From a virus: DNA of 32,023 nucleotides. Of the stretch, positions 9,708-31,820 are shown one piece after another. Location of the stretch: positions 1-32,023 of the IMG/VR virus record IMGVR_UViG_3300022074_000211, one strand, 5' to 3'. The notes under the pieces were generated by a model. It had not been told where the DNA came from. It saw only the letters and a program-made list of their open reading frames with translations, and searched no databases. Position 1 is the first letter of the stretch, and every line of letters starts with the position of its first letter. A program made the position numbers and the translations under genes.

Positions 9708-10388
9708 ATGTCTAATGTTTTAAGTGAAGATACAATTAATGTATTGAAAAACTTTGCTACTATTAATCCTAATTTGGTATTCACACCAGGGCAAAAGGTT
9801 AAAACAATATCAGAGTCTAAAACTATTTTAGCTCAAGCAGATATTGTAGAAGATATGCCAAAAGAATTTGGAGTCTATGACTTAAACGAATTCTTATCAG
9901 TGTATAATCTTGTAGAACAACCAACCCTTGAATTTGAGGACAAATCAGTTTTAATCAATGGCGCAAACAATCAGGTTGTAAGATATTTCTTTTCTGAAAT
10001 TGAAATACTTACTACACCTCAAAAAGATATACAGATGCCAGATGCTGAACTAGGATTCACACTTACTGACGAGATTTTAAATCAAATCAGAAAAGCTGCT
10101 GCAGTTCTAGGTCATACAGAATTATCATTGAAAGGTGATAATGGTGTAATCACTGCTTCTGTAGTGGATACTAAGGATAATACAAGCAACTCTTTTAGTT
10201 ATGAACTAGATAGAGATAATGCTTGTGTAGAAAGTTTTAACTTTATCGTTAGTATACCAAATTTAAAATTATTACCAGGCGATTACTTTGTGAGCATATC
10301 ATCAAAGTTAATTTCTAATTGGACTAATAACAATTATCCAATAGAATATTTTATCGCTTTGGAAAAAAACTCAAGCTTTGGTGTATAA
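9708..10388 (+). CDS. 45: gp45 sliding clamp
   Basis: A 226-residue protein matching T4 gp45 (228). The shared elements are L-K-N-F-A-T-I-N-x at the N-terminus, Y-D-L-N-x-F-L, and F-N-F-I-V-S-I-P-N-L-K near the C-terminal third. gp45 forms a trimeric ring that tethers gp43 to DNA, and it activates late transcription by contacting gp55 and gp33. It has its own family A promoter and a GGAGA ribosome site seven bases before the ATG. In most relatives 45 is followed by 44; here two small genes and structured intergenic DNA separate them. Confidence 0.95.
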   Translation: MSNVLSEDTINVLKNFATINPNLVFTPGQKVKTISESKTILAQADIVEDMPKEFGVYDLNEFLSVYNLVEQPTLEFEDKSVLINGANNQVVRYFFSEIEILTTPQKDIQMPDAELGFTLTDEILNQIRKAAAVLGHTELSLKGDNGVITASVVDTKDNTSNSFSYELDRDNACVESFNFIVSIPNLKLLPGDYFVSISSKLISNWTNNNYPIEYFIALEKNSSFGV

Positions 10389-13886: not shown

Positions 13887-16406
13887 ATGTCTAAGTTTTA
13901 TACTAATGTGTCGCGTTATGGAAATATGATTCTACTACGCGGATATGACCACAACAAAAGAATCACAGAAAAAATTAAATACGAACCAAAGCTGTATGTC
14001 AGTACAAACAGACCTACAAATTGGAAAGCTTTGGATGGTACACCTGTGGCTGAAATACCATTTGACTCTATGAGATCAGCAAACGAATGGTATCAGAAAA
14101 ACAAACAAACCGCCGGACTCCATATCTTTGGAAATACCAGGTATATCTCAACCTTTATTAATGACTACTTTCCAGGTCAGATAGAATTCGATAGGAACAA
14201 AGTAAATGTGACTACTATCGACATCGAGGTTGCGTCCGATGATGGCTTTCCCGAGCCCGATAAAGCAGAGAATCCTGTAATATCAATAACAACTAAAAAT
14301 AATATTGATAACACATATCATGTGTGGGGTCTTGGCGACTATGATGTAGACAAATCTCTAATGAAAACTCACAGAGTTGTCTATCACAGATATCACACAG
14401 AAGCTGATCTATTAATTAATTACATTACATTTATATCTCAACCATCCATGACACCAGATGTTATTACTGGTTGGAATACTAGATTTTTTGATATACCATA
14501 TCTTGTCAATAGAGTACATAAACTTCTAGGCGAATCTTATGTAAAAAGAATGAGCCCTTGGGGTATGATCGATAGACAAGATGTGACAAAGATGGGAAGA
14601 ACACAAACCGCTTACGAGCTCAAAGGAATAGCTCAACTTGATTACTTAGACTTATTTCAAAAGTTTGGCTATTCCTACGGGCCACAAGAATCTTATAAAC
14701 TAGATCATATTGCTCATGTTGTACTTGGTGAGAAGAAACTAAGCTATGAGGAATATGGTTCATTACATACTTTATATAAACATAACTTCCAAAAGTTTAT
14801 TGATTATAATATCAAAGATGTTGAGTTGGTTGATCGCATAGAAGATAAGATGGGGTTAATTACTCTTTGTATGACCATGGCTTATAAAGGTGGTGTTAAC
14901 TATAATGACACCTTTGGTACAACAGCTATATGGGACACAATCATTTATCGTAAACTAAACGAAAACAAAATCGTTGTACCATTCATAGAAGATAAAGTTA
15001 AAACATTTTATCCAGGTGGTTTTGTTAAAGACCCACATGTTGGAATACATGAGAACCTGGTTAGCTTTGACTTAAACTCTCTATACCCATCAATAATTAT
15101 GCAATATAATATGTCACCTGAAACAATTGCCGAAGGTGAAGTATCTAAGGTTGACATAGAAGCAGTACTAACTAAATCTCAAAGACCAGACAATCATGGT
15201 AAAGCTTTGGCTGCTAATGGTCAGATATTCAATACCGATAAGGTTGGAATCATTCCTTTAATTATTGACGAGATGTATCAAGAACGTGTTGGCATAAAAG
15301 ACAACATGATTAAAGCACAAAAAGAATTACAAAAGGTGGATAAAAATGACAAACAAGAATTATACAGAATTGAGAAAGAAATCAGTATTGCAGAGAATAG
15401 ACAGATGTCTATCAAGATACTCCTTAATTCCCTTTACGGTGCTCTTGGTAATAAGTATTTTAGGTTTTTTGATCAGCGGGTGGCAGAGGCCATTACCCTC
15501 ACCGGACAACTTACAATACGATGGGCCGAATATGCACTTAATACCTACCTCAATAGAGCTATGCGAACAGAGACATGGAAAGACTTTGTCGTTGCAATCG
15601 ACACCGATTCGTTGTATGTATGCCTAGATGATTTAGTTCAAGCAATCAATCCAAAAAATCCAATAGACTTTTTAGATAAAGTTTCAGCTGAAAAGCTTGA
15701 AGCGGTTCTAGCACAATCTTATGATGAACTTTATAATATGTTTGGTGGTGTATCAAATCGTATGGTTATGAAAAGAGAAGTGATTGCTGATCGTGGCATA
15801 TGGACAGCTAAGAAAAGATATATTTTAAATGTATTAGATAACGAAGGTGTTAGATATGCTAAACCTAAACTGAAAGTTATGGGTATCGAAGCCATTAAGA
15901 GTTCTACACCAGAACCATGTCGTGAAGGTCTTAAAGAATTATTTAAAGTTATCATGTCTAAAGATGAAACAGAAGTACAGAAAGCTATCGAACAATTTAA
16001 AAATTATTTTAAAACACTAGGTCCAGATGCTATAGCATTTCCAAGAGGTGCATCAAAAGTAAAAGAATATCGTGACTCAACAAACATCTATAAGAAAGGT
16101 ACACCGATGCATATTCGAGCAGCTCTGCTTTATAACAGAATGATACAAGATTTATCACTGACCAAAAAATATACACAAATTAAAAATGGCGATAAGATAA
16201 AGTTTATTTACCTTAGAAAAGCAAATCCAATAAAAGAAAATATTATTGGCTTTGTTGACTTCTTACCAGAAGAATTTAACTTACATAAATACATAGACTA
16301 CGAACTACAATTTCAGAAAACATTTCTGGATCCAATAGAACCGATACTCGATGCTGTTGGTTGGAATTCGGAAGAAACAAATTCATTGGAGGATTTCTTT
16401 GCATGA
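13887..16406 (+). CDS. 43: gp43 DNA polymerase (family B)
   Basis: An 839-residue replicative polymerase (T4 gp43 is 898). Exonuclease motifs are D-I-E at 112-114, N-T-R-F-F-D near 200, and Y-N-I-K-D near 310. Polymerase motif A is D-L-N-S-L-Y-P-S-I-I, motif B K-I-L-L-N-S-L-Y-G, and motif C I-D-T-D-S. The C-terminus is S-L-E-D-F-F-A, matching the position of the T4 clamp-binding tail. No ribosome site precedes the ATG, which lies seven bases after the -10, so initiation is probably leaderless. Its 3' end carries the GGAGG used by the next gene, overlapping by ATGA. Confidence 0.97.
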   Translation: MSKFYTNVSRYGNMILLRGYDHNKRITEKIKYEPKLYVSTNRPTNWKALDGTPVAEIPFDSMRSANEWYQKNKQTAGLHIFGNTRYISTFINDYFPGQIEFDRNKVNVTTIDIEVASDDGFPEPDKAENPVISITTKNNIDNTYHVWGLGDYDVDKSLMKTHRVVYHRYHTEADLLINYITFISQPSMTPDVITGWNTRFFDIPYLVNRVHKLLGESYVKRMSPWGMIDRQDVTKMGRTQTAYELKGIAQLDYLDLFQKFGYSYGPQESYKLDHIAHVVLGEKKLSYEEYGSLHTLYKHNFQKFIDYNIKDVELVDRIEDKMGLITLCMTMAYKGGVNYNDTFGTTAIWDTIIYRKLNENKIVVPFIEDKVKTFYPGGFVKDPHVGIHENLVSFDLNSLYPSIIMQYNMSPETIAEGEVSKVDIEAVLTKSQRPDNHGKALAANGQIFNTDKVGIIPLIIDEMYQERVGIKDNMIKAQKELQKVDKNDKQELYRIEKEISIAENRQMSIKILLNSLYGALGNKYFRFFDQRVAEAITLTGQLTIRWAEYALNTYLNRAMRTETWKDFVVAIDTDSLYVCLDDLVQAINPKNPIDFLDKVSAEKLEAVLAQSYDELYNMFGGVSNRMVMKREVIADRGIWTAKKRYILNVLDNEGVRYAKPKLKVMGIEAIKSSTPEPCREGLKELFKVIMSKDETEVQKAIEQFKNYFKTLGPDAIAFPRGASKVKEYRDSTNIYKKGTPMHIRAALLYNRMIQDLSLTKKYTQIKNGDKIKFIYLRKANPIKENIIGFVDFLPEEFNLHKYIDYELQFQKTFLDPIEPILDAVGWNSEETNSLEDFFA

Positions 16407-19945: not shown

Positions 19946-20278
19946 ATGAAAGAATCATTGAGAGTACTACAAGAATGCGCAGAGCTTCAAGCTAAAAAAT
20001 CACAAGATTATCAAAGTGACGAATCTACTGTCACTCAAGCTATGCACTATCGTAGAGGTGTAGATACAATACACGATATTATTTTAGGCAAAGTTGTTCG
20101 TGCAACTTCTTTACTAGAATCTGGCAATGAACCTAACTTTGAATCACTAGAAGATACTTACAAAGATTTAATTAATTATTCGTCTTTTGCTGTATCTTAT
20201 ATTCGTGGTAAGATGGAAGGTCAAGACCCTAACAGAAATATGTTCAACAAAAAGGTAAAGAATGTATCAAGTGAATAA
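19946..20278 (+). CDS. DUF1599 / nucleotide-modification-associated (Nmad1-like) protein
   Basis: A 110-residue helical protein. The pattern K-K-S-Q-D-Y near the N-terminus, I-I-L-G-K-V-V-R-A, and L-E-D-T-Y-K-D-L-I-N-Y-S near the C-terminus fits DUF1599, a MazG-related fold that has been linked to phage base modification. Its direct coupling to the dCMP hydroxymethylase gene (17-base overlap) fits a role in the nucleotide supply for modified DNA. Its biochemical activity is not established. Confidence 0.75.
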   Translation: MKESLRVLQECAELQAKKSQDYQSDESTVTQAMHYRRGVDTIHDIILGKVVRATSLLESGNEPNFESLEDTYKDLINYSSFAVSYIRGKMEGQDPNRNMFNKKVKNVSSE

Positions 20279-20939
20279 TACTGCAGATATTGCAGAAGTA
20301 TTTAAAAAACACCTAGCAGCAGAAAACTTTGTCACAGATAAAACAGGTCAAAAGACTATAGAAATAATCGGTGCATCTTTTGTTGCTGATCAGCCAGCAA
20401 TATTTGGTGAACCAAATGAAAGATATATTGAACATGAATTAATGTGGTATGATAGAAAGTCAACTAATGTTTATGATATATACGGTCATGAACAAGCACC
20501 AAAAGCTTGGTTATATTCTGCAAATAAACACGGTGAAATCAATTCTAATTATGGCCATCTAATTTATTCTGGTAAATACTTTAGACAATACGATAAAGTA
20601 TTAAAAGAATTACTTACAAATCCAGACTCAAGACGTGGCTCTATGATCTATCAAAGACCAAGTATTTGGAAAGAATACAAAGAGAATGGCAAGAATGATT
20701 TTATTTGTACCAATGCTGTGACATATTATATTCGTGATAATATGCTTCATGCTACAGTTCAAATGCGAAGTAATGATGTAGTCTTTGGTTATAAGAATGA
20801 TTATGCTTGGCAAAAAGTTGTTCAAGAAAGATTATTAGAAGATTTATATTATAATGGTACACACATCGAATTAGGCCACATTTATTGGCAAGTTCAAAAC
20901 TTACATGTATATGAGAGGCATTTTGATTTAGTAATATGA
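20262..20939 (+). CDS. 42: gp42 deoxycytidylate 5-hydroxymethylase
   Basis: A 225-residue thymidylate-synthase-fold enzyme very close to T4 gp42 (246). Matches include K-T-I-E-I-I-G-A-S-F-V-A-D, G-E-I-N-S-N-Y-G, N-P-D-S-R-R-G, the nucleophile C149 in D-F-I-C-T-N, and M-R-S-N-D-V-V-F-G-Y-K-N-D-Y-A-W. D180 stands where thymidylate synthases have Asn, the change that selects dCMP over dUMP in T4. The enzyme makes hydroxymethyl-dCMP from dCMP and methylene-THF. It stops about 24 residues before the T4 C-terminus. It overlaps the genes on both sides. Confidence 0.93.
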   Translation: MYQVNNTADIAEVFKKHLAAENFVTDKTGQKTIEIIGASFVADQPAIFGEPNERYIEHELMWYDRKSTNVYDIYGHEQAPKAWLYSANKHGEINSNYGHLIYSGKYFRQYDKVLKELLTNPDSRRGSMIYQRPSIWKEYKENGKNDFICTNAVTYYIRDNMLHATVQMRSNDVVFGYKNDYAWQKVVQERLLEDLYYNGTHIELGHIYWQVQNLHVYERHFDLVI

Positions 20940-22078: not shown

Positions 22079-23449
22079 ATGATTGGTAAAAAAATTGCAA
22101 TAGTTTTTGGCAAGGGTCTAGACGGCTGTGGTGTCGAAAAGTTTGGTTATGAATGGCAAAGATATGATCCAGAAAATATCGATGTCTTTGCATTAAAAGA
22201 AAGAGCCTTCAATCGTGGAGGTACTCACATATCTAATTATGTAGAATTCAAACCAGACGAGATGTCTACAATCGCAGAAAGATTAAACAATGATTATGAT
22301 ATTGTTATAATCAATTCATATCCGAGTCCGATGCACAATCAAAAAACCGTCACAAGTTTTTATCGTGATCTAATATTAAAAATAGAAAAACCAATTCTAG
22401 TAAGTATGATGCATGAGATTATACAATCTAACTATGATCGTATTCCATTACAAGTTGCGATCTCAAATGCAGCAGATGTAGTATTTAATTTTTCTACACA
22501 TACAAATTATGCAAAAGACATGGCAAGAATTCTTACTAATAAAAAATTAGGTGAGAGAATTGCTAGAATGAAATTACCATTGACACTAGATGATTTTCAG
22601 AAGTGGAGAATTACACACGATCAAAAGAAAAGAAGATGTATCTATGCAGGCCGTTGGTCATCTATGAAACAACCTAATGTGATAATAGAACTATGGGAAA
22701 GAGATAAAGACTTTCACTATGCATTACATGGTATAGAAAAATCTATTGGTGCTAAGTTTGATGTTATTGACCCTTGTGATTATTTTAGAAAGTATACAGG
22801 TACATATAACTATGAATCAGAAAGATGCGAATGCTTTGGAGAGTTTGATTATAACCAAGGTATGACATTAATATCAGAATCTATGTTTGGTTATAGTGGA
22901 TTTCATTTACCAAAGATGCCACATAATTATGGCGATAGATTTGAATATGCACAGATGGAAATAATTGCATGTGGTACAGTTCCGATATTTGATAAACATT
23001 ATAGTGAACATAACAAAGCAATTGATGGTAGTTTATTTGCAGAACACGATATTGCAATATGGAATGACCGCAATAATTTAGACAAAACAATAGAAAAGAT
23101 ACATGAGGTTGCAGACGACCATACAACATACTATCAATATAACGAAGATGGTTTAGAATTTTTACACCAAGAAGCTGAATCAAGTGTGGTTATACCTAAC
23201 ATGATAAGACATATCTGTATTATGGGTAAACAAGAAGATAAGTGGAATACACAGGACTTATTGAGAGAAGTTTATAAGACTGAAGAAGTATATGACGAGT
23301 TTGATTATTTACTAGATAATAAGATCACAGCTCTCGGTGTAAAAGAAATTGATAATGGTGATCTAAGTTATTTTGAAAAGAAGGCAAGATTAATACATAA
23401 GAACGTGAGTGAATTAAATACGCAATCATTGGAGGATTTTTTTGGATAG
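22079..23449 (+). CDS. DNA glycosyltransferase, T4 alpha-glucosyltransferase-like
   Basis: A 456-residue GT-B-type protein matching T4 AGT (400) at several points: G-K-G-L-D-G-C-G-V-E-K-F (T4 A-R-G-L-E-G-C-G-V-T-K-F), N-D-Y-D-I-V-I-I-N-S, Y-A-Q-M-E-I-I-A-C-G-T-V-P-I-F near 292-306, and a late E-F-L-x-Q-E-A-E-S-S block. AGT transfers glucose from UDP-glucose to hydroxymethylcytosine in DNA. The sugar used here is not shown and may differ. About 70 extra C-terminal residues end in S-L-E-D-F-F-G, the same tail as gp43. It lies downstream of gp42. It lacks a Shine-Dalgarno sequence and starts seven bases after a -10. Confidence 0.85.
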   Translation: MIGKKIAIVFGKGLDGCGVEKFGYEWQRYDPENIDVFALKERAFNRGGTHISNYVEFKPDEMSTIAERLNNDYDIVIINSYPSPMHNQKTVTSFYRDLILKIEKPILVSMMHEIIQSNYDRIPLQVAISNAADVVFNFSTHTNYAKDMARILTNKKLGERIARMKLPLTLDDFQKWRITHDQKKRRCIYAGRWSSMKQPNVIIELWERDKDFHYALHGIEKSIGAKFDVIDPCDYFRKYTGTYNYESERCECFGEFDYNQGMTLISESMFGYSGFHLPKMPHNYGDRFEYAQMEIIACGTVPIFDKHYSEHNKAIDGSLFAEHDIAIWNDRNNLDKTIEKIHEVADDHTTYYQYNEDGLEFLHQEAESSVVIPNMIRHICIMGKQEDKWNTQDLLREVYKTEEVYDEFDYLLDNKITALGVKEIDNGDLSYFEKKARLIHKNVSELNTQSLEDFFG

Positions 23450-23798
23450 TATAGTAATCGATATAGACGATACAATCTTATTTACAAATCATCAATACAA
23501 AGATGCTAAACGTAAATATGGTGAAGCAAAACCAAATGATATAGTAATCAAAGGTATAAGAAAGCTTCATGCAAAAGGTTATAAGATTATATTACATACA
23601 GCCAGACGAATGTTAACCTTTGATGGTGATATTGAAAAGATTATAGCTGATGTCGGAGACATAACTACATCATGGTTAGAAAGACATGAGGTGCCCTACG
23701 ATGAACTCGTTTGGGGTAAACCATATAGTTCAACCTATTATGTCGACGATAAAGCAATGAATTTACAAGAGTTTAAAGAATGGACAAATTCAATTTAA
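23442..23798 (+). CDS. HAD-superfamily phosphatase-like protein
   Basis: A 118-residue HAD protein. Motif I is D-I-D-D-T near 7-11, motif II L-H-T-A-R, and the C-terminal motifs are W-G-K-P with Y-Y-V-D-D-K-A. It is short and cap-less, like the small phosphatases of sugar and capsule loci. The start is TTG, six bases after GGAGGA; the overlap with the glycosyltransferase end is eight bases. Position between a glycosyltransferase and a nucleotidyltransferase-kinase suggests it acts on a phosphorylated sugar intermediate, but this is inference. Confidence 0.82.
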   Translation: MDSIVIDIDDTILFTNHQYKDAKRKYGEAKPNDIVIKGIRKLHAKGYKIILHTARRMLTFDGDIEKIIADVGDITTSWLERHEVPYDELVWGKPYSSTYYVDDKAMNLQEFKEWTNSI

Positions 23799-25267
23799 TA
23801 ATACCAGCTGCAGGAGCAGCCACGAGACTAAGACCTCTATCCTCGAGCACGTCGAAGGTAATGGTACGTGTGAATGGTAAACCTTGCCTTGACTATATCA
23901 TAGAGGCAGTCAATGGATCCGTTGACGAAGTAGTTGTTGTGGATGGCCAATTCACTGATATTCGCGAATATTGTAAAGTGAAACATCCGAAGGTAAGGTT
24001 CGCCAACCAGCCATCATTAGATGGTCCAAGAGATGCAATTAAGATTGGAATGGAAGCTTTAGAAGATAGTGGAAAGCCAGTTGTTGTATGGCTTGGTGAT
24101 GCAATTATCTTAGAAAAAGGTATGCCATTAGGTCATGACTTTTTATTAACTAAAAGAGTTGAAGATCAATCAGCATGGTGTATGTGGGATGGTCGAAATT
24201 ATTATAATAAACCAAAACAACCAGTAGAAAATTCTAATGCTCTAGTTGGTTTATATTCTTTTAGTGATGGTGTTGCAGCTTTAAATGCTTTTAGTAATAC
24301 AGATGGTTATGATATATCAGATGCTCTTATTGAATATGTTATAGATAAAGATACAACGTTTGCAGAATATATCACAGAAAAATGGTACGATATTGGTGAC
24401 CTTCCAACATATTATAAAACATGTGCAGCATTATTAAACACAAAAGCTCGTGCATTTAATAATTTAAATTTTGATTCTGATTTAGGTACAATCAGAAAAT
24501 TACCAGACTATCATGACAAACATTCATTAACAACATTAAGAGAAGAAAAAGAATGGTATGAACATCTTACTCCAGAGCAATCTATGTTTACACCTAGAAT
24601 ATTACCACATCCTGTTGATTTAATTATGTCATACGAAAGTGGCACTTTACTTAGTGATCTTATGTTATACGACAATATACCTAATAGTCATTGGGATTAT
24701 ATTATGGATAGAATCTTTAATATTAAATTAAAATATTTTAACAATAGAGTAGAAGATAAAGACATTATAGACAGTTTTGATGAATTATCTAAAAAGATGT
24801 GGTGTGATAAAACAGAAGAAAGAGTATGTAATGAAATGTATGATAGCCATGTCGGTGCTAATCTAATAAAAAGAGCTGAATGGATTTATAAAAGAACATC
24901 GCCCATATCTGGAATGCATGGTGATTTACATTTTGCAAATATATTATATAATCAACAAACAGATCAATTTAAATTTTTAGACCCACGTGGTAATTATGGT
25001 GGTTGCATTGGAACAATAGGCGACGATATTTATGACTGGGCCAAATTAGCACACGATTGTTATTGGGGTTATAACTCAATTGTTGCTGATGTACCACAAA
25101 ACGAATATGTTAAAGATTTATTTACACGTAAACTAGATGAATATAATTTAGATAAAGATTTAATATTGTATGGTGGATTAGTATTATTAGGTACTTGTAT
25201 ACCATTGCATTATGAAGATGCAGATAGACAAAAAAGAATGATGGAGATTATTAGAAATGAAATATAG
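23780..25267 (+). CDS. Sugar-phosphate nucleotidyltransferase - small-molecule kinase fusion
   Basis: A 495-residue two-domain protein. The N-terminal 210 residues are a nucleotidyltransferase (A-A-G-A-A-T-R-L-R-P-L ... K-V-M-V-R-V-N-G-K-P, later W-L-G-D-A). The C-terminal part is an aminoglycoside/choline-kinase-like domain with H-G-D-L-H-F-A-N-I-L near 380-389 and L-D-P-R-G-N. Paired enzymes of these kinds act in sequence, as AmgK-MurU do on MurNAc or LicA-LicC on choline. A kinase plus nucleotidyltransferase would convert a free sugar or alcohol into an NDP-activated donor. It overlaps the HAD gene by 19 bases. The substrate is unknown. Confidence 0.82.
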   Translation: MDKFNLIIPAAGAATRLRPLSSSTSKVMVRVNGKPCLDYIIEAVNGSVDEVVVVDGQFTDIREYCKVKHPKVRFANQPSLDGPRDAIKIGMEALEDSGKPVVVWLGDAIILEKGMPLGHDFLLTKRVEDQSAWCMWDGRNYYNKPKQPVENSNALVGLYSFSDGVAALNAFSNTDGYDISDALIEYVIDKDTTFAEYITEKWYDIGDLPTYYKTCAALLNTKARAFNNLNFDSDLGTIRKLPDYHDKHSLTTLREEKEWYEHLTPEQSMFTPRILPHPVDLIMSYESGTLLSDLMLYDNIPNSHWDYIMDRIFNIKLKYFNNRVEDKDIIDSFDELSKKMWCDKTEERVCNEMYDSHVGANLIKRAEWIYKRTSPISGMHGDLHFANILYNQQTDQFKFLDPRGNYGGCIGTIGDDIYDWAKLAHDCYWGYNSIVADVPQNEYVKDLFTRKLDEYNLDKDLILYGGLVLLGTCIPLHYEDADRQKRMMEIIRNEI

Positions 25268-26507
25268 TTCAATTATACCACTGATCGGTGGAGAGAGTAT
25301 AGCGGTAATGAATAAGTTAAATGGACAAATGCCAGAGGAAGTTTTATCTTACACTGGCTTTGTAGATAACGATAGTCATTACATTAATTATTTAAGAGAT
25401 AAAGGGTGGGAAGGTAAATACACTTTATTAGATGAAAAGTCAAACCATAAACCAAAGAAAGTAGATATCGTAAATACAGTTTGTCCTTGTGCAGGTCTAT
25501 CATCACTATCACAACATACAGTTCGTAATGAAGGCCACAATGACTGGATGTTTGAATCAGCACATTATGTTTTAGGTAAGATACAACCAAGAGTGTTTTG
25601 GGGTGAGAACGCACCAAGACTAGCAATGGAACCCGGTAAAGAGGTTGTAGCTAAATTAAGAGATATTGGTAAAGAGTATGGATATACGTTTAGCATCTAT
25701 AAAACTAAATCTTTAGTACAAGGATATAGCCAAATTAGAGATAGAACATTTTACTTCTTTTGGAAAGGAGATCAAACACCTTTACTAGATTATATACACA
25801 GACCACATGAACTAATTGAAGATACTATTTCAAATGTTGTAAACAAAAAAGACGACCCTATGAGCGTTGTTCCTAATCAGAAAAAACCATCAGACGATCC
25901 AGTTTACAAATATTTTTTAAATAAAACTGGTATGACTCATGCTGAGTTTGTTGCAGCATTACCTGGACCTAATATGAATTTATTTGATTATATGGATTAT
26001 ATTGGAGGAGAGACTAAATGTGTCGGACCAAATACAGGTAAAACATATGCTGGTTGGCTAGAGGTATTAGAACATTTAAAAGGTAATGATGATGAACATT
26101 CTGCTAGATGGGCAAAGAGTATAGAAAGAATGGTTGCTAAACAAAAAGCTGGTGGTAGCGTTATGAGAAAGAGTACCACATTTCCAAAGGGACATATCGG
26201 AGCATTTGTTGGCCACTATCCATCTATGTTAACACATCCAGTAGAAGATAGATATTTAACTTATAGAGAAATGTTATCTATAATGTATCTGCCAGAAGAT
26301 TTTGAATTATTACATCCAAAGAAATTTCAAAATCATATATGCCAAAATGTACCAGTCAAAACTGCTGAAGATATGATGGAACAAGTTATAAAGTTCTGTA
26401 ATAATAGATTAGATTTAATTGATACTGATTATATTTTACAAGATAATAAAAGAAAGTGCCATGAATATGCAGAAAACAGTTTACAATTGGACCAGTTTAT
26501 GGTATAA
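25257..26507 (+). CDS. Cytosine-C5 DNA methyltransferase-like protein
   Basis: A 416-residue protein with C5-methyltransferase motifs in order: a diverged motif I (I-G-G-E-S-I-A-V near 10-17), motif IV with P77-C78 (C-P-C-A-G-L-S), motif VI E-N-A near 117-119, motif VIII Q-I-R-D-R at 159-163, and motifs IX-X near the end ([14 protein letters not shown]). The catalytic Cys is present. In a phage whose cytosine is already C5-hydroxymethylated, ordinary 5mC synthesis on its own DNA would be blocked, so its role is puzzling. The stop codon lies within the -10 of the rpsU promoter. The start overlaps the previous gene by 11 bases. Confidence 0.83.
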
Positions 26508-30728: not shown

Positions 30729-31820
30729 ATGAAAAGGTTTAAATCTTTTATTTACGAAGCCAGCCTATCTGGCAAAACAACTAAATACAAAGATAACACG
30801 GGTGCGTGGTATCAGTATGTCGAGTTGAATCCAGAATTAAAAACATTAAAGCTAGAAAATGATTCATTTTTATTTGAATTAGATGGAACACCAACAAAAA
30901 CCGTATTAAAGAAAGGTACTGAATTAGAAATTGTTGGAAGAGAAGTGAAAACACTGCTAGATTCATCAAGATCAAAATTAGCACATATGAAATATAAAGG
31001 TAAAGACTATAGAGTACCTACTAGCAAATTACTTAAACCTTCAGGTAAAGAGGTTGCACCAATTGAAGCAGACCTAACACAAAAAGAGAATCCAGGTGTA
31101 TTTACAAACTTCAAGGCAGGGCATGGTCATGAAGGTCAATTCATTCAAAGATGGATTAATAGTTCTGGTACCCTTTGGGAATTTGAATATAAAGGTAAAG
31201 AATATCGTATAACAAATCTAAGTGCACCTACTACAAAAACCGTTGGTAATCCAAAGACAGATGTAGTAGTTGAATTAGATAAAAAAATACCGGGCCTAGG
31301 TAATAAACTTTATTATAGTTTGAAAGATGCTAATGCAACATACTTTGAAAACTGGATATTACCAAAAAGATTCTTTCAAATATTTGGTAGCTCATCTAAA
31401 AAGATTATAGAAAATGCTTATGAACAATTGAATAAGAATAACAAGATAGGAAGGTCAGGTTATAAATCAGTATCAATTTGCCCTTTTGTTAAGAGTAAAC
31501 CATATAACCATACTAAACTATCTAAGAGTCAAAACATAGAAGTATTATCCGGCGCAAATAAGTTTGGTAAAACTGATGCAACTGCAAATTGCTTTTTTGC
31601 TGGTACAGTACCAGAAACTATTGCAGAGATTATTGATGGTACTATATCAGTAAAAGATATGGCTGGAAAGATTAATGTCGGTTTAGATTTTAGAGGCTCA
31701 AACGATATTAAGAACTCATCAGTCTTTATTAAGAATGACGAAGGTGGCTGGGATATAAGAGAAAACTGGATTGGAAGAGGTGAACTAAAACTAGATAAAA
31801 GCATGGGACAAAGTAAGTGA
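30729..31820 (+). CDS. Putative capsid-targeted internal protein, possible PD-(D/E)XK nuclease
   Basis: A 363-residue protein of unknown family. The N-terminus M-K-R-F-K-S-F-I-Y-E-A resembles T4 capsid-targeting sequences (M-K-T-Y-Q-E-F-I-A-E-A). The I-x-E of the gp21 protease cleavage consensus falls at residues 8-10 in both, so cleavage after E10 is predicted. Two SH3-like segments contain Y-K-G-K-(D/E)-Y-R. In the middle, E135 in H-E-G-Q-F-I-Q-R-W, then N-P-K-T-D-V-V-V near 174-181 and Y-Y-S-L-K near 195-199 could form a diverged PD-(D/E)XK site. Late-type promoter context agrees with a packaged protein. The nuclease reading is weak. Confidence 0.6.
   Translation: MKRFKSFIYEASLSGKTTKYKDNTGAWYQYVELNPELKTLKLENDSFLFELDGTPTKTVLKKGTELEIVGREVKTLLDSSRSKLAHMKYKGKDYRVPTSKLLKPSGKEVAPIEADLTQKENPGVFTNFKAGHGHEGQFIQRWINSSGTLWEFEYKGKEYRITNLSAPTTKTVGNPKTDVVVELDKKIPGLGNKLYYSLKDANATYFENWILPKRFFQIFGSSSKKIIENAYEQLNKNNKIGRSGYKSVSICPFVKSKPYNHTKLSKSQNIEVLSGANKFGKTDATANCFFAGTVPETIAEIIDGTISVKDMAGKINVGLDFRGSNDIKNSSVFIKNDEGGWDIRENWIGRGELKLDKSMGQSK

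Follow-up and report, generated by a model that had tools for sequence, protein, structure and literature searches.

Polymerase-like C-terminal tails on a glycosyltransferase and other DNA-modification enzymes of T4-like phages: a proposed motif for tethering to the gp45 clamp

The window, meaning the whole stretch of 32,023 nucleotides analysed here, is part of a T4-like phage; homologues of gp43, gp45, gp44, gp62, gp46, gp47, UvsX, UvsW, gp41, gp55 and RegA are encoded in it. The genes for the DNA polymerase gp43 (13887–16406), the sliding clamp gp45 (9708–10388), the late sigma factor gp55 (2220–2789; PHROG 234, E=1.2e-52) and a gp42-like dCMP hydroxymethylase (20262–20939; 56% identity to T4 gp42) all lie on the plus strand. 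The nearest relative of the polymerase is that of phage C48C1 (51.6% identity), followed by those of cyanophages; its identity to T4 gp43 is 32%. The clamp was recognised by a phmmer match to RB69 gp45 (1b77/1b8h, E=1e-18) and has 27% identity to T4 gp45. A 363-residue protein encoded at 30729–31820 has no PHROG match.

The gene at 22079–23449 (plus strand) encodes a glycosyltransferase (GT) of 456 residues which belongs to the T4 alpha-glucosyltransferase (AGT) family by profile, PHROG and fold. It matches PF11440 at E=1.6e-15 (57.5 bits, against a curated cut-off of 25) and PHROG 2888 (alpha-glucosyltransferase) at E=1.3e-72. Its AF2 model (mean pLDDT 89.5) has a GT-B fold like that of T4 AGT, whose structure, 1xv5, was the best Foldseek match (E=3.6e-23; TM 0.80 by target length). 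T4 and Klebsiella AGT terminate near GT residue 384 in the alignment, while the window GT continues for about 70 residues more and then ends in the tail described below. The model is confident up to about residue 440; pLDDT then drops to 76, and then to 49 across the last 16 residues. Residues 451–456 have a mean pLDDT of 49 and include a short helix (451–454), and a low-confidence end with a short helix is what would be expected of a docking peptide.

As the phage encodes a gp42-like hydroxymethylase which would provide it, 5-hydroxymethylcytosine is a likely substrate of the GT. Downstream, again on the plus strand, follow in order a HAD-type phosphatase (23442–23798), a nucleotidyltransferase with a further C-terminal domain, probably for sugar-nucleotide synthesis (23780–25267; PHROG 24015, with a PF00483 match spanning residues 7–110 of 495), and a C5-cytosine DNA methyltransferase (25257–26507; PF00145). 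This cassette may produce a special sugar nucleotide. A gp42-like hydroxymethylase and a C5-methyltransferase beside the GT co-occur in nearly all searched GT contigs of this group.

The polymerase and the GT end in almost the same peptide. As originally predicted, gp43 ends ...NSLEDFFA (tail SLEDFFA, 16383–16403, plus strand) and the GT ends ...QSLEDFFG (tail SLEDFFG, 23426–23446, plus strand). The DNA common to both, TCATTGGAGGATTT(C/T)TTTG, at 16383–16401 and 23426–23444, consists, again as predicted, of 14 identical bases, one change and four further identical bases. The 18-mer TCATTGGAGGATTTNTTT has two sites only in the whole record, one in each tail. It had also been pointed out that this DNA holds a ribosome site for the next gene, and both tails do contain a GGAGG upstream of an overlapping start: that at 16388–16392 (plus strand) probably serves an ATG-started 2OG-oxygenase gene (16403), and that at 23431–23435 (plus strand) the TTG-started HAD gene (23442). 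For a motif defined post hoc, the probability that any of the 44 other window genes matches the gp43-style C-terminal motif is about 0.004.

Two other window proteins had been suggested to carry weaker variants of this tail. Their endings were read correctly (SLQLDQFMV in the methyltransferase; KLELFM, within ...EKLELFM, in gp55), but neither passes even a loose form of the motif. The methyltransferase ending is nevertheless conserved in relatives, as LQL(D/T)(Q/D)FM or LTLDKFM, and LQLDQFMV may therefore be retained as a candidate weak tail variant. In G015, G016 and G017, three other genomes or contigs, gp55 ends SDLSAFFEE, SDLSNFFEE or SDLSSFLEG, with the expected clamp epitope lying near, and not at, the very end.

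A lack of the tail from every related GT had been named beforehand as a refutation of the idea, and the comparison shows the opposite. All close GT relatives end in SLEDFFG despite silent changes, and GTs at 56–61% identity, from T4-like contigs, end in SLEDFFG/A/T or SLEEFFG after a linker which differs. The GAG codon is retained across all tailed GTs compared. Pairwise among the GTs, the tail codons show 138 synonymous and 20 nonsynonymous differences, while the 12-codon linker preceding the tail shows the reverse (64 synonymous vs 465 nonsynonymous); the GT tail is thus under selection at the protein level. The low pLDDT at the GT end and the divergence of the linker among relatives together describe a flexible tether. 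The tails of gp43 are also conserved: every IMG/VR relative read as far as its C-terminus keeps [STN]LE[DS]FF, and the next position is G, A or the stop.

A strict motif, C-terminal [STDN]L[DESG]x[FL]F(x), was formulated after the first tails had been seen and was scanned against 1610 ORFs from ten non-redundant genomes or contigs, some of these contigs having been chosen for tailed enzymes. It was found at 18 C-termini. Internal positions predict 0.15 such matches and tail composition 0.11, and both nulls reject a chance origin. The 18 proteins are eight gp43 and ten modification enzymes, and nothing else. The window GT passes the strict form, as does gp43 in a scan of T4, where gp33, annotated as a connector to gp45, passes the loose form. 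Among the matches listed from a scan of IMG/VR, 115 of 119 proteins ending in SL(E/D)DFFG are gp43; the remaining four are one GT family member, one gp43-adjacent SinI-like nuclease and two cut fragments.

Similar tails are present on several other modification enzymes of T4-like phages. In phage C48C1, gp43 ends TLEDFFG, the Dam methyltransferase adjacent to it TLDAFFG and a TET/JBP protein SLEEFFV, with no further strict match among its 191 ORFs. The TET/JBP relatives found in IMG/VR are tailed in 15 of 15 cases (SLEDFFA, SLEEFFV, SLEAFFA, SLEDFF, TLDEFFG, SLDDFF), as are all 13 TET-associated glycosyltransferase (TAGT) relatives there, with the forms SLEDFFS, SLEEFFS, DLSDFF, SLEDFF, SLDDFFG and TLDEFFG. 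One Dam group and one C5-methyltransferase group in T4-like phages also bear gp43-like tails. In DLP6, gp43 ends TLDSFFA, TET TLGDFFV and TAGT DLSSFFN; this genome is GC-rich, and its gp43 was taken from a homology match and its TAGT from the record annotation, as a simple choice of ORFs left both out. In Cr30, gp43 (DLSSLFD) and a TAGT-like protein (DLSKLF) have a common variant form, and TET has only ...GATLF at its end. An amino acid:DNA transferase (PF18724; L164:7021-8250) adjoins the TAGT-like gene of Cr30 and is without a clamp tail. A GNAT-like protein of about 215 residues near TET (L219:11410-12057, with equivalents in G016 and G017) ends HFSL(E/D)AFL, a loose match. In a C48C1-like contig, a homologue of the SinI restriction endonuclease directly follows gp43 (L393:899-1345) and ends QASLDDFFG, where gp43 ends QASLEDFFG; the codons of the two tails differ, so that recent copying from the gp43 end is unsupported, and the nuclease is possibly clamp-tethered.

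The tail is associated with T4-type replication genes. By clade, it is found in 16 of 23 clades with these genes and in 0 of 17 where no T4-type polymerase or clamp was detected (P=3.9e-6), in a table assembled by hand where the absence of gp43 or gp45 was in several cases judged on fragments. Distant GTs (39–41%) have tails only in two contigs with a gp45 homologue, where the GT ends PDLSTFF and the neighbouring C5-methyltransferase MSLESFF; in sister contigs where gp45 was not found, neither enzyme has the tail. Most tailed TAGT and TET genes have T4-type genes adjacent to them or on the same contig, although none were found on the fragments L148–L152, L160 and L440. Phages without a detected T4-type polymerase encode TET (PF12851) and TAGT (PF20691) hypermodification enzymes of the same families as the tailed ones, and these have no such tail. 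The TAGTs of LuckyBarnes (second copy) and ctUhy936 end ...QWKKAF(K/N)xxLL, at about the point where others add the tail.

Among the modification enzymes of T4-like phages the tail is, from the sequences compared, common and not universal. Universality is ruled out by the AGT, BGT and Dam of T-even phages (T4 among them), Klebsiella AGT and cyanophage Dams, which are tailless though their phages are T4-like, and by some C5-methyltransferases; the XG4 C5-methyltransferase and the S-TIM5 methyltransferase also lack it. Some GTs of large phages (L132–L134, L185, L186) end NSTKLF, NATKLF or NVTKLF, and on the same contigs a piece of polymerase ends RTQLF; these endings are possibly another clamp motif. 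The TAGT of Nonlabens phage P12024L (L167:3619-4377) has the ending NQLEIF, similar to the beta-clamp motif of bacteria.

We propose, with considerable confidence, that the GT tail is a gp45-binding motif of a kind which tethers post-replicative modification enzymes to the clamp. The GT and gp45 are encoded by one phage, and the tail would dock in the peptide-binding pocket of that phage's own gp45, as the polymerase tail does. Through its flexible, fast-evolving linker, the catalytic GT-B domain could then ride clamps behind the fork and glycosylate the hydroxymethylated bases of new DNA. A similar motif would have been gained several times in T4-like phages: by AGT-type GTs, TAGT, TET/JBP and some DNA methyltransferases. 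The sequences themselves establish that the tail is present, conserved and selected at the protein level, and that it goes with T4-type replication genes; from this we infer that it binds gp45, recruits the enzymes and couples them to replication.

Since each tail of the window overlaps the start of the next gene and uses the uncommon codons TTG and GAG, it could be argued that a TTGGAGG ribosome site fixes Leu-Glu in both and that the remainder is chance. This is very hard to credit, as the peptide is kept where there is no GGAGG: TET ends are encoded by CTTGATGAATTTTTTGGA, gp43 ends with CTCGAGG or TTAGAGG, and the methyltransferase end of G008 by CTTGAGAGTTTCTTT. Synonymous change in the tail also far exceeds nonsynonymous change. 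The ribosome site is thus rejected as the sole cause, and looks like an added second use of the same DNA. A different partner, such as the clamp loader or RNA polymerase, or a role as a stability signal, is improbable but less so; the case for gp45 is built from sequence form and distribution, which leaves room for such a reading. Against it, gp43 and gp33, both established gp45 ligands, bear the same form, and no tails occur where T4-type gp43 or gp45 was not found.

A further alternative concerns the origin of the tail and not its function. The original prediction held that it may have been copied from gene 43; such copying would be by recombination, and over SLEDFF the two tails of the window share 17 of 18 bases. 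This identity has a probability of 0.09 given the codon usage of the phage, and of 0.19 when a ribosome site is required in both tails, while the 60 bases upstream match at 18 positions only. Among the nearest relatives, ACCCTGGAG... encodes the gp43 tail and TCATTGGAG... the GT tail, and tail forms differ by family (SLEDFF, DLSTFF, TLDEFFG), which favours repeated origin of a short motif. Copying is therefore possible but not needed, and we regard it as unlikely.

The proposed tethering has partial precedents in T4. The C-terminal motifs of T4 gp43, gp55 and gp33 are interchangeable in clamp-dependent activation (PMC2988020), so that another protein may need no more than a polymerase-type end. 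In pull-downs, gp45 is recovered with T4 AGT and not with BGT (PMC13216743); the AGT–gp45 interaction was described by Sommer 2004, as cited in PMC13216743. The ratio of alpha to beta glucosylation in T4 in vivo is set mostly by expression and is unexplained by the AGT–gp45 interaction (PMC13216743). The original prediction had coupled glycosylation to the moving replisome, with the gp45 interaction of T4 AGT among its grounds. Clamp coupling is strongly supported by the present comparison; T4 AGT, although it co-purifies with gp45, ends in ...FDIITK, so that it is a functional precedent whose contact with gp45 must differ. Our reading is that clamp coupling has been useful repeatedly in T4-like phages, the tail being one route to it.

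Polymerase-like tails on enzymes which decorate copied DNA suggest that, in T4-like phages, modification takes place on DNA emerging from the replication fork. More broadly, we somewhat favour the view that these phages have repeatedly made their clamp a platform for hypermodification: a polymerase-style tail would have been gained separately by TET dioxygenases, by methyltransferases and by GTs of two unrelated families, and base modification would be the work of a replication-coupled assembly. Phages with other clamps may have done likewise via other motifs, such as TKLF/RTQLF or the QLEIF of the P12024L TAGT. If this is true, a simple sequence test on T4-like genomes would indicate which unknown proteins act on new DNA, and the disputed role of the AGT–gp45 interaction becomes testable in phages where the contact consists of a short tail, a few residues long, that can be removed. 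In the open-access literature, to which the search was confined, we found no description of these tails.

The closest known counterparts are T4 gp43 (SLDFLFG), gp33 (NTLDFLL) and gp55 (SLDFLYE), all of which, like the GT, carry a short acidic-hydrophobic stretch close to the C-terminus or at it, after a divergent linker. These are the polymerase and transcription factors, whereas the tail bearers described here are DNA-modification enzymes. T4 AGT shares with the GT the PF11440 family, the fold and the proposed clamp coupling, but is without the extension of about 70 residues and the tail. In eukaryotes, DNMT1 is brought to PCNA by an N-terminal PIP-box. Both DNMT1 and the GT are DNA-modifying enzymes with a short clamp motif, although that of DNMT1 is of another form and the likeness is one of analogy only. 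If the tethering proposed here is true, phages would protect their new DNA by recruiting the modifying enzymes to gp45, in much the way that DNMT1 is recruited to PCNA.
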